Both the position numbers and the translations under genes were made by a program. Below, piece by piece: positions 2,598 to 5,292 of a stretch of 12,002 nucleotides of DNA. The notes below the pieces were generated by a model. That model searched no databases, was not told the origin of the DNA, and worked only from the letters and a program-made list of their open reading frames with translations. How positions within the stretch are numbered: the first letter of the stretch is position 1; each line of letters opens with the position of its first letter. The DNA is taken from contig DVKA01000097.1 of NCBI GenBank assembly GCA_018716365.1, positions 1 to 12,002 on the forward strand, given 5' to 3'. The stretch comes from Candidatus Caccocola faecipullorum. Lineage in GTDB: Bacteria > Synergistota > Synergistia > Synergistales > Synergistaceae.

Positions 2598-3353
2598 CTG
2601 AAGGATTTTGAGGAACATTACCCCATCTCAAAAAAAATATCCCGCTTCATAGGAGAAGCCATAAGGGATTATAGCATGATAAAAGCGGGAGACGGCGTCA
2701 TGATAGGACTTTCCGGCGGCAAAGACAGCCTCCTGCTCTCGCTCGCCCTCGCGTCGCTGAGAAAGCGCAGCCCGGTGAAGTTCGAGCTGCGCGCCTGCAT
2801 GATAGACCAGTCCGGCGGCTCAATGGAGACAGGAGCCGTGCTCGAATACATGGACGAGCTCGGCATCCCCGTCACGACGATAACACACCCGACATATCAG
2901 ATAATGAAAGAGCGCGATGAGCGGTCGCCGTGCAGCCTCTGCGCGAATATGAGGCGCGGGATGCTCGCAAACGCCGCCCGCGCGGCAGGCTGCGGCGTGC
3001 TGGCGCTCGGCCATCACAAGGACGACGCGGCCGAGACGGTGCTGATGAACCTCTTTTACGGCGGGCGCTTCAAATGCTTCCATCCGCACCTTTATATGAG
3101 CCGGACGCAGATAAGGGTGATACGCCCGATGATTTACATAGAAGAGCGTCAGATAAAGCTTGAAACAGAAAGGCTCGCCCTTCCCGTAACAAGTTCGTGC
3201 TGCCCATTCGGCGGCGCGACGAAGCGCGACGAGGCGAAGGAGACCCTGGCGCGCCTGATGGCGGAAACGCCGGAGCTCAAGAGCAACATAATCCACGCGC
3301 TGAAAAATATGCGCGAGTCCGAAGGCTGGCCGCAGGGGATGCTGAACGGGTAA
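2598..3353 (+). CDS. TtcA-family PP-loop ATPase, probable tRNA thiolation enzyme
   Basis: Predicted cytoplasmic tRNA-modifying enzyme of the TtcA family, which adenylates a tRNA base and replaces oxygen with sulfur using an iron-sulfur cluster. With the start at 2598 the protein has 251 residues. The PP-loop SGGKDS is at 39-44, the cysteine pair SPCSLCANMRRG is at about 110-121 (C112, C115), LGHHKDDAAETVLMNLFYGG is at 137-156, and a late cysteine pair in TSSCCPFGG is at 201-202. TtcA normally uses a CxxC plus one later Cys to hold the cluster, which fits. ATG 2676 would start right at the PP-loop and lose a helix (ISRFIGEAIRDYSMI) typical of the family, while CTG 2598 has a well-placed Shine-Dalgarno. 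Which base is thiolated (C32 or another) is not certain. The gene stands alone on the plus strand. Confidence 0.8.
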   Translation: MKDFEEHYPISKKISRFIGEAIRDYSMIKAGDGVMIGLSGGKDSLLLSLALASLRKRSPVKFELRACMIDQSGGSMETGAVLEYMDELGIPVTTITHPTYQIMKERDERSPCSLCANMRRGMLANAARAAGCGVLALGHHKDDAAETVLMNLFYGGRFKCFHPHLYMSRTQIRVIRPMIYIEERQIKLETERLALPVTSSCCPFGGATKRDEAKETLARLMAETPELKSNIIHALKNMRESEGWPQGMLNG

Positions 3354-3400
3354 CTCACAAGAGTTACAGCTATGTTTGCGCGCTCTGCCGTATAATGTTA

Positions 3401-3428
3401 TTGACACCCGCATAATATCACTTAAAAT
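3401..3428 (+). promoter_or_regulatory. Sigma-70-type promoter of the nucleotidyltransferase/HTH cassette
   Basis: A consensus -35 TTGACA (3401-3406) is followed after 16 bases by TAAAAT (3423-3428), about 50 bases before the proposed start of the nucleotidyltransferase gene. The -10 box lies inside the left arm of the inverted repeat at 3415-3451, so a protein bound there would block transcription. Confidence 0.65.
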
Positions 3429-3451
3429 AATATTATTATTTTAAGTGATAT
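3415..3451. repeat. Perfect 17-bp inverted repeat, candidate operator
   Basis: ATATCACTTAAAATAAT (3415-3431) is followed by three bases (ATT) and its exact reverse complement (3435-3451). The stem is almost pure A/T with no U-tract after it, so it makes a poor terminator for the upstream gene. It overlaps the -10 box and the expected transcription start of the downstream pair, and the second gene of that pair encodes a helix-turn-helix. An autoregulatory operator is the simplest reading. Confidence 0.65.
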
Positions 3452-3461
3452 AAAATCTCAC

Positions 3462-3471
3462 AAGGTGGTGA
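3462..3471 (+). promoter_or_regulatory. Near-consensus Shine-Dalgarno that fixes the nucleotidyltransferase start
   Basis: AAGGTGGTGA matches the extended anti-Shine-Dalgarno complement with one mismatch. Because it covers the two upstream GTG codons (3465 and 3468), those are unlikely to be used. GTG 3477, five bases beyond it, is the best start. Confidence 0.6.
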
Positions 3472-3476
3472 AAATT

Positions 3477-4028
3477 GTGCCTGCTCGCGGAATCAAGGAA
3501 AATATATTGAAACGTCTGGAAGAACTGGACGAACTGCTTTTTCTCAGCGGGCTGCACAATAAAGAACAGCTCAGAGCAGTGGTCGTGGGCGGAGCAGCGC
3601 TGCTGCTGATGGGATATATAGACCGCTCCACCAAGGATATTGATTTCATCGAGGTATCGCGCGAAGCGGAGAAATTTCTTCCAGAGTTCGACATAAATAC
3701 GAACGTCACGGCCTATCTGAATGATTTCCCAGACGACTACAACGAGCGGCTCGTGGTTCTTCCAATCGGTGGAAAGAAGATAAAATACTACGCCATGTCG
3801 CTCGAAGACATCGTCATCGCAAAGGCGTGTTCTTACAGGGACACTGATATGAACGATATAAGAAGTCAGGAAGTTATAAACAACCTAGATTTCGCTTTAC
3901 TTGACAGGCTCGCGGAAGAGAAAGCATTAAACGCGCTCAACGATACGCAAAGCTCTATCTTCCGCGCAATGTACAGGCAATACAGGAAAGAAGCGGCAGA
4001 AAAAAGAAAAGAGGCGGAACGAAAATGA
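3477..4028 (+). CDS. Nucleotidyltransferase of the DUF6036/AbiEii-like group, putative toxin
   Basis: Predicted 183-residue cytoplasmic protein with a polymerase-beta-like nucleotidyltransferase core. VVVGGAALLLMG (about 35-46) carries the glycine pair, and RSTKDID (50-56) carries the two Mg-binding acidic residues (D54, D56). LEDIVIAKACSYRDTDMNDI (about 109-128) matches the third conserved block of AbiEii/DUF6036 proteins. The C-terminus is a charged, Lys/Glu-rich helix (about 168-183). In this superfamily AbiEii and MenT members are toxins that modify RNA or nucleotides. Whether this protein does so is inference. It is preceded by its own promoter and inverted repeat, and its stop overlaps the next gene's ATG (ATGA), so the pair is translationally coupled. 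The codons look somewhat AT-richer than in neighbouring genes, consistent with acquisition. A frame extending four residues upstream to 3465 is less likely. Confidence 0.78.
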   Translation: MPARGIKENILKRLEELDELLFLSGLHNKEQLRAVVVGGAALLLMGYIDRSTKDIDFIEVSREAEKFLPEFDINTNVTAYLNDFPDDYNERLVVLPIGGKKIKYYAMSLEDIVIAKACSYRDTDMNDIRSQEVINNLDFALLDRLAEEKALNALNDTQSSIFRAMYRQYRKEAAEKRKEAERK

Positions 4029-4564
4029 GAGCGCCGTCGTTCAAATGGTTTTTGAAAAAATATGTTCAAGAGCTCTCATACTGCGGCAGCTCCGGCGTTA
4101 TCCGGCTTGCGCGCGAGGCCGCGGATGGAAATCCGAGGCTGCGTGCGCCGCTGTTTCTATACGCCTGTTTTTACGGGGTCGAGCGGGAGCTCGTCACGGC
4201 GTCGTCGTCCAACGAAGCGCTCTTTGCCGAATATTCGCGGCTCAGCGATCTTTTTGGCGGAGACACGCAGAAGCTGCTCGACGCGCTGAAGTCCGGCGAC
4301 GGCCCGATGGACGCGGAATATTTCAAGGTCTACGCCTCGTACGCCGCCGAGCGCGCGACGGCGGAACGGGAGAACAGACTGAAAATTTTAATGAGAGACC
4401 GGGCCGTTGAGCTCAAAGAAGAGAAACGCATATCCGGCTATAAAATATACAAGACGCTCGGCCTCAACCCGGGGAACGCAAACGCATATCTAAAGCACGG
4501 CGACGCAAGCAAGGTCAGCCTTGCGACGGCGCGCCGTATACTCGATTTCGTCAGCGGATACTAG
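4025..4564 (+). CDS. Unrecognised protein with C-terminal helix-turn-helix, putative antitoxin/repressor
   Basis: Predicted 179-residue protein. I do not recognise the N-terminal part (1-130): it is mainly helical in appearance, begins FKWFLKKYVQEL, includes NPRLRAPLFLYACFYG (about 36-51), and has a charged helix at 105-135. The C-terminal 45 residues look like an XRE/Cro-like helix-turn-helix: ISGYKIYKTLGLNPGNANAY (136-155), then KVSLATARRILDFV (163-176). No HEPN motif (RxxxxH) is present. The gene overlaps the nucleotidyltransferase by ATGA and ends in a CTAG shared with the convergent rluB stop. A DNA-binding partner downstream of an NTase, plus an upstream palindrome, suggests an autorepressing antitoxin. 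In AbiE the antitoxin is usually the first gene with an N-terminal winged helix, so order and domain layout differ here. Confidence 0.65.
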   Translation: MRAPSFKWFLKKYVQELSYCGSSGVIRLAREAADGNPRLRAPLFLYACFYGVERELVTASSSNEALFAEYSRLSDLFGGDTQKLLDALKSGDGPMDAEYFKVYASYAAERATAERENRLKILMRDRAVELKEEKRISGYKIYKTLGLNPGNANAYLKHGDASKVSLATARRILDFVSGY

Positions 4565-5292
4565 ACCGTCTTCCCCTCTTTGATATACCGCCAGAGCGTT
4601 TCGCGGTCTACGGATATGAATTCGCCCGCGGGCAGAGTTTTGAGCGTCAGACGCCCGATTTTGCGGCGCAGCAGGCGGCGCACGTCGTTCCCCAGCGCGC
4701 GCGCCATCAGGCGGATTTCGCGTTTTATCCCTTCTCCTAGTACGACCTCGAACCAGCACTGCATGGGATTGCGCGCTAGGCGGCGCACTGAGAGCGGCTT
4801 CAGGAACGTGCCGTCCGCGTCGACGCCCTTCGTCCAGCGTATCAGCGTAGGCTCGTCCATAGGGCGGCGAAGTTCCACCTCGTAGGTCTTTGTGAAGCCG
4901 TTGCGCGGGTGTATCAGCTCCTGCGAGAACATTCCGTCGTTCGTCAGGATTATCAGCCCTTCGCTGTCGCGGTCGAGCCGCCCTACTGGAAAGAGGCGCA
5001 GACGGTCCATCGAAGGCGGCAGAATGTCTATAACTGTGCGCTCCCGCGAGTCCTCGACAGCGGAGAGCACTCCCTTCGGCTTATTGAAGATGAGGTACGC
5101 CGGTTCCACAGGCGAAAGTTCACGCCCGTCGAGTTCCACAACGTCGCCGGGAGTTACCTGCCGCCCGGGTTCGTTCACGATTTCGCCGTTTATGCGGACG
5201 CGCCCCGCCGTTATGAATTCCTCGACTTTGCGCCGCGCTCCGGCGCCGCACATGGCGAGATACCTGTTAAGCCTCACAGTCCCTTCACTCAT
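4561..5292 (-). CDS. rluB: Pseudouridine synthase, RluB/RsuA family
   Basis: Predicted 243-residue RNA-modifying enzyme that isomerises a uridine, most likely in 23S rRNA. The N-terminal S4 RNA-binding domain (about 6-52) begins VRLNRYLAMCGAGARRKVEE, and the catalytic block FPVGRLDRDSEGL (101-113) carries the family's Asp (D107). The later block EGIKREIRLMARALG (187-201) matches the usual EGxxRQVRRM motif, and IGRLTLKTLPAGE (212-224) is also family-typical. Length fits RluB/RsuA proteins. I use RluB because scpA-scpB-rluB order is common, but sequence alone does not exclude RsuA or RluE. ATG 5292 overlaps the scpB stop by eight bases, implying coupling. The stop shares a CTAG with the convergent cassette. 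Confidence 0.85.
   Translation of the reverse strand: MSEGTVRLNRYLAMCGAGARRKVEEFITAGRVRINGEIVNEPGRQVTPGDVVELDGRELSPVEPAYLIFNKPKGVLSAVEDSRERTVIDILPPSMDRLRLFPVGRLDRDSEGLIILTNDGMFSQELIHPRNGFTKTYEVELRRPMDEPTLIRWTKGVDADGTFLKPLSVRRLARNPMQCWFEVVLGEGIKREIRLMARALGNDVRRLLRRKIGRLTLKTLPAGEFISVDRETLWRYIKEGKTV

Follow-up and report, generated by a model that had tools for sequence, protein, structure and literature searches.

Among described systems, MenAT, AbiE and the COG4861-COG4849 or PygAT-type pairs come closest to the nucleotidyltransferase (NTase) cassette considered here, which occupies positions 3401–4564 of contig DVKA01000097.1 of Candidatus Caccocola faecipullorum (assembly GCA_018716365.1; Synergistaceae), within an analysed stretch of 12,002 nucleotides hereafter termed the window. 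The cassette consists of an NTase gene followed by a gene for a helix-turn-helix (HTH) partner, and it is probably an autorepressed MenT-like NTase toxin-antitoxin module of an undescribed family. According to the two sources on MenAT (PMC11375011, PMC10435456), the MenT1 toxin is characterized by the residues T39, D41, K137 and D152, and the NTase residues T56, D58, D60, K120, D128 and D131 follow this order, the two proteins being compared by sequence order only. The cassette further resembles MenAT in the small putative antitoxin gene that adjoins its NTase and possibly in the predicted, MenT-like fold of the NTase. However, its partner is a 179-amino-acid (aa) protein of two domains with a C-terminal HTH and a conserved operator, and its NTase falls below the AbiEii (PF08843) cut-off.

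As described in PMC3985639, AbiE shares the plan of an NTase together with an autoregulating DNA-binding protein that acts on inverted repeats, but AbiEi carries an N-terminal winged HTH and its gene precedes that of the NTase. Here the NTase comes first and the XRE-like HTH is C-terminal, a departure from classical AbiE already noticed in the sequence-only reading of this DNA; the partner shows no AbiEi match at E ≤ 1 in Pfam or PADLOC. A predicted NTase with an adjacent predicted regulator is likewise found in the COG4861-COG4849 or PygAT-type pairs (PMC3985639, PMC11375011), for which a serine or threonine is conserved at the phosphorylation site (PMC11375011). Since these sources disagree on gene order, with the regulator first in one (PMC3985639) and the NTase upstream in the other (PMC11375011), order alone cannot separate the cassette from such pairs. 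With respect to the HEPN/MNT type VII systems, the partner differs in having no conserved RX4-6H motif, as an alignment of 35 partners has histidine in no invariant or nearly invariant column. Compared with the XRE antitoxins HipB and HigA and with restriction C proteins, its extra region is N-terminal and belongs to no Pfam family; relative to HipB and HigA, the toxin side is presumably different as well, being an NTase and not a kinase or an RNase.

The linked gene pair and its operator

The genes for the NTase and its partner are tightly linked, and this linkage is conserved. When the partner alignment was used to scan genome contigs, a partner-first set of 48 loci emerged, assigned by record title to Oscillospiraceae, Faecalibacterium, Ruminococcus, Lachnospiraceae, Bacilli and Coriobacteriia, and a DUF6036-like NTase lies directly 5′ of the partner in 35 of them, or in 36 when L037 is counted, in which the contig end cuts the NTase and the C-terminus is retained. 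Overlap of the two open reading frames (ORFs) was measured at 34 loci and in the window, and amounts to 4–22 nt in 27 of these 35 cases. The 12 partners without an NTase include two partial matches (L048, L049) and one broken gene (L050). From the other side, a search with an NTase alignment (A3) gave matches in 7 genomes out of 394 from one order, in 46 out of 396 from the class of a Coriobacteriales genome and in 12 out of 396 from the family of a Faecalibacterium genome. The matched places, all of which were inspected, make up 66 distinct NTase-first loci, and a partner adjoins the NTase in 65 of these 66, ten of which repeat places of the partner-first set; the sole exception (L063) is a remote NTase (E 7e-6). 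The conserved co-occurrence that the sequence-only reading had proposed to look for was thus found in both directions. Among 185 genomes of the window's own phylum, two matched the partner and one matched the NTase. Additionally, partner and NTase distances are correlated with r = 0.887 over 38 pairs, with species history left in, against a maximum of 0.246 in 1000 shuffles. At two loci the pair appears in continuous reading frame: both proteins lie in one 363-aa open frame in L127 (1504–2595), and the NTase C-terminus is joined to the partner in L155 (1711–2541), each being either a natural fusion or a draft-genome indel.

The NTase gene is located at 3477–4028 of the forward strand and encodes 183 aa from a GTG codon at 3477. 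Its reading frame is open from another GTG at 3465, but position 3477 is the more likely start, because the 3465 codon sits within AAGGTGG and because the homologue P0041 starts at the equivalent of 3477. The protein is a clear member of DUF6036 (PF19502), scoring 140.4 bits (E 6e-41) against a gathering cut-off of 23.6, and the Pfam entry assigns this family no function. It was also compared with AbiEii (PF08843), which was reached only below the Pfam cut-off (18.4 against 22.5 bits; PADLOC AbiEii models, E 0.004–0.012). The NTase motif recognized earlier is present as GG, 14 residues and DxD, with a threonine two residues ahead of the first aspartate, and the residues invariant among 34 aligned homologues include G42, G43, R54, T56, D58, D60, K120, D128 and D131, numbered from 3465. 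Its predicted structure (predicted local distance difference test, pLDDT, 91.4) is nearest to MenT1 and AbiE-type proteins, with MenT1 at the top, tied with the AbiEi C-terminal domain.

The partner gene (4025–4564, forward strand) starts at an ATGA that overlaps the NTase gene by 4 nt. As judged by predicted structure (pLDDT 95.4) and homologues, its 179-aa product comprises an all-helical N-terminal domain (about residues 1–120) and an XRE-like C-terminal HTH (about 123–178); residues 111–179 align with XRE, HipB and C-protein structures, and the N-terminal domain is barely covered in that comparison. Neither protein has a significant sequence relative in the PDB. The partner matched no family above the Pfam cut-off and none in NCBIfam or PADLOC, the DUF3511 match being sub-cut-off (13.1 bits), and PF19610 was discarded as its family, given that it matched one homologue only and below its cut-off. 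A profile search assembled 975 related clusters at E ≤ 0.001. A Cloacibacillus match (P0042) at 65% points to Synergistota as the host's phylum.

The second conserved element is a 15-mer, AATAATA-N-TATTATT, whose middle position is mostly C or G in the relatives and T in the window (3426–3440), where the same 15-mer as at the relatives' modules marks the operator core. With 0–2 mismatches, and between −220 and +80 of the module start, it was found at 33 of the 35 NTase-bearing partner-first loci and in the window; of the two loci without it, L042 is a true miss, and for L041 there is no sequence 5′ of the module. The remaining 416,589 bp of the loci scanned contain seven matches, all with two mismatches. 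When 88 modules with distinct NTase DNA were counted, the 9-mer AATABTATT occurred near the start of 65, against 0.84 expected from flanking rates, and the 15-mer with at most two mismatches at 55, being absent at 33; after removal of NTases at least 90% alike, the 9-mer was present at 46 of 69 modules versus 0.54 expected. Many Coriobacteriia sites carry at least three mismatches to the 15-mer. Many of the loci L114, L116 and L118–L126 display two operator-like sites, mostly at about −41 and −19 from the NTase start, both diverged from it. A TTGACA hexamer begins 35–37 bp 5′ of the operator in 29 of 39 loci (near-identical strains included), which places the operator just past the −10, over the likely transcription start. 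The window is an exception, with TTGACA 25 bp upstream of the operator core, so that the repeat overlies the −10.

Of the 12 partners without an NTase, five are likewise preceded by the operator, exactly in L034, with one mismatch in L011 and L039 and with two in L007 and L032; at the remaining seven no operator was present within two mismatches. Because the operator is retained where the NTase is absent, the HTH partner is likely its reader, and of all steps of the proposed scheme this recognition can be inferred most firmly. As for further targets, the window's own draft genome (87.7% complete) contains no second operator site with 0 or 1 mismatch. Sites with no more than one mismatch occur in 12 of 17 genomes, which were reached via 18 loci; they number 25 altogether, versus 20 for a reversed control, and seven of the eight exact copies lie at known modules or solo partners. 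Around operator sites, six regions of four genomes were inspected, of which one is the L034 solo partner and five have no module. The eighth exact copy (L065:3473–3487, in G189:C18) has no module and lies about 250 bp from a gene that resembles AbiEi on visual inspection; this copy may have arisen by chance or may serve the partner as a second target.

In the window itself, a TTGACA-16-TAAAAT promoter (−35 at 3401–3406 and −10 at 3423–3428, forward strand, 16-nt spacer) matches the consensus at 11 of 12 positions in a consensus scan, and its TTGACA recurs 5′ of the operator in relatives. The −10 hexamer lies within a perfect inverted repeat at 3415–3451, a probable extended operator, whose arms (3415–3432 and 3434–3451) are separated by 1 nt and whose repeat-search score was never reached when the upstream region was shuffled 100 times (first order). 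A ribosome-binding-like AAGGTGG can be read at 3462–3468 of the forward strand, 8 nt 5′ of the GTG at 3477, and the control region (3400–3499) has a GC content of 33%, against 41–68% in the other 100-base segments of 2600–5199. All the features described from the letters alone were reproduced, among them the consensus promoter, the AT-rich control region in a GC-rich setting and the ATGA-coupled second gene with a C-terminal XRE-like HTH, and the N-terminal part of the partner indeed matches no Pfam family. The palindrome's proposed role as operator gained from its conservation across modules and at solo partners, and its overlap with the −10 stood, but the arms measure 18 bp and not the 17 bp first given.

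NTase damage and short partners

Several loci retain an intact partner beside a lost or damaged NTase. In G163, a genome of the same family as the window, a 31-residue C-terminal NTase stump lies 5′ of the partner (45% identity, E 8.6e-5); the NTase is reduced to a 72-aa ORF in L012, interrupted by a stop in L033 (the same place as L101) and split in L154, and a 61-aa NTase ORF remains in L156. Intact NTases were never seen with a damaged partner; the one split partner at an NTase locus, in L153, adjoins an incomplete NTase near a contig end. Two further candidates were set aside: the L011 stump is a weak tail with most of its match inside the partner gene, and the NTase-like tail of L038 is weak and may be a mere ribosome-binding site. 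This pattern fits a toxic NTase and a protective partner. Around partners lacking an NTase, inspection by eye also revealed a run of ankyrin-repeat-like genes near the G163 solo partner (L052:10850–13845), a small MNT-like NTase gene with a HEPN-like gene directly 3′ of the partner (L011:5733–6402) and a YafQ-like toxin gene beside the partner in a prophage-like stretch (L034:5878–6159).

Other DUF6036 NTases are followed by short proteins, of which one group (A5) resembles the N-terminal domain of the partner only, with residues 1–122 aligned; that short partners lack an HTH was judged from how long they are, how far the alignment reaches and the want of an HTH match in Pfam. At 13 short-partner loci no operator site was present within two mismatches near the NTase, and L079 has one two-mismatch site about 490 bp upstream of it. 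As the short A5 partners, without operator, resemble the N-terminal domain alone, a division of labour is suggested, in which the N-terminal domain would control the NTase and the C-terminal HTH would bind the operator. A second set found after DUF6036 NTases (A6) showed no detectable relation to the partner (E 0.63; control E 0.52) or to A5 (E 0.075 over 20 columns). In L081–L085 and L087–L089, DUF6036 NTases are followed by different proteins of about 113–127 aa, none of the four tested being above a Pfam cut-off, and these constitute a possible further partner type.

Setting of the cassette

The cassette is flanked, according to Pfam, by a PP-loop gene upstream (2676–3353) and by an S4/pseudouridine synthase gene on the opposite strand (4561–5292), which we take to be ttcA-like and rluB-like, respectively. 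These two genes are 1,211 bp apart in the window versus 58 bp in a genome of the same genus (G124), and the gap is 53–110 bp in three genomes of the same family (G163, G133, G134); in all four relatives the site is empty. The ten window genes scanned in Pfam belong to other families, and neither a transposase nor an integrase was found beside the module. The partner had no match in the plasmids searched, and none of 33 candidate stretches from a viral contig scan with the partner alignment was confirmed. Three phage records match the partner, and the two inspected, unannotated human-faeces records (L096, MT839758.1; L097, MT835727.1), comprise one with the partner and an edge-cut NTase and one with the partner alone.

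The survey of neighbouring genes covered 90 ORFs at 35 of the 48 loci, selected from a list of 140 that already omitted eight near-duplicate loci. It revealed no common neighbour, with at most five members per family among the top families listed (the top 25 of 221 and the top 25 of 99); the ORFs were called without a gene finder and some may be spurious. The largest of these listed families were AAA/DUF4143 (Pfam) and PDC-S01 (PADLOC). Defence matches among those listed were two mad1/mad2 and single AbiEi, methyltransferase, type IIG, DpdF, BrxP, SspA, PsyrT and YafQ hits, so that the earlier suggestion of a defence cassette received little support, such genes being scattered and no common defence context being apparent.

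Proposed mechanism, alternatives and significance

The scheme outlined here is inferred as regards DNA binding and complex formation, toxicity and its target, and neutralisation and transfer. The NTase, with its T-x-D-x-D, lysine and aspartate intact, would be the probable toxin and, by analogy with MenT, may add nucleotides to tRNA or another essential RNA. The N-terminal helical domain of the partner would bind and restrain the NTase, and its C-terminal HTH, as a dimer, would bind the promoter palindrome and turn the operon off, so that partner loss would raise operon expression. Transfer between bacteria would involve the whole module, a unit of about 1.2 kb. It is also conceivable, if doubtful, that the N-terminal domain of the antitoxin induces the NTase to phosphorylate itself at T56, in the way that MenA1 acts on T39 of MenT1, and that the C-terminal domain represses, which would combine silencing and transcriptional shut-off in one protein and make the short versions of other Bacillota ancestral or stripped-down.

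The toxicity of the NTase, the weakest link of this scheme, is suggested by damaged NTases next to intact partners, by the strict linkage of NTase to partner and by the MenT-like predicted fold. Draft-genome errors may inflate the damage pattern. On the partner tree, NTase absence requires eight changes (five forced by well-supported branches), shuffled labels averaging 9.3 with L037 relabelled; the tree shows scattered NTase absence and not its direction.

Strict pairing and a conserved operator would be equally expected of a sensor pair, in which the NTase would modify the HTH partner or a ligand by nucleotidylation and thereby tune DNA binding for self-regulation and perhaps for other genes. 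That some partners without an NTase retain the operator, and that G189 has one exact operator copy away from any module, would also agree with a sensor, but the draft genome of the window has no site with 0 or 1 mismatch other than that at the module, and hence no sign of a regulon. Additionally, the short partners without operator suggest a need for a partner that does not depend on DNA binding, and NTase damage beside intact partners would be unexpected for a useful sensor, so that this explanation is considered unlikely. An AbiE-like type IV system, with an NTase toxin, a non-interacting antitoxin-repressor and a role in phage abortive infection, would account for the combination of NTase and autoregulating HTH protein, for the weak AbiEii similarity and for the single AbiEi and other single defence matches among the flanking genes. 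However, it appears improbable, given that the NTase belongs to DUF6036 (140 bits) and remains under the AbiEii cut-off, that the partner, whose HTH is C-terminal, does not match AbiEi, that the possible natural fusion in L127 hints at contact between the two proteins and that the flanking genes have no common defence context.

Roles could instead be reversed, as in HEPN/MNT type VII systems, with the NTase acting as an antitoxin that modifies a toxic partner. The NTase-first order and the all-helical partner domain would suit this arrangement, but the partners lack a conserved RX4-6H motif and any histidine in (nearly) invariant columns and, moreover, persist without an NTase, the opposite of what a toxic partner predicts, which makes such a system very improbable. 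A drug-modifying or metabolic nucleotidyltransferase with its own repressor has an equally slight chance: MenT1 ranks higher in the fold match, by less than 2 Z, the same partner is kept at 65 of 66 NTase loci and short partners without operator follow other DUF6036 NTases.

In the literature searched, from whose scope subscription journals and preprints were excluded, no paper mentioned DUF6036, PF19502 or the 15-mer operator sequence with C at its centre, and none combined nucleotidyltransferase, toxin-antitoxin, Faecalibacterium and Collinsella. The cassette recurs as a unit across several bacterial groups, many of them gut-derived, and its conserved operator provides a sequence tag for finding more modules. 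If the toxin-antitoxin reading is correct, DUF6036 would become a toxin family, and the two-domain partner and its short, operator-less relatives would allow neutralisation and autoregulation to be separated. Likewise, a large unnamed partner family, with its 975 clusters distributed over Bacillota, including Faecalibacterium, over Coriobacteriia and in the genome studied here, would gain a function.
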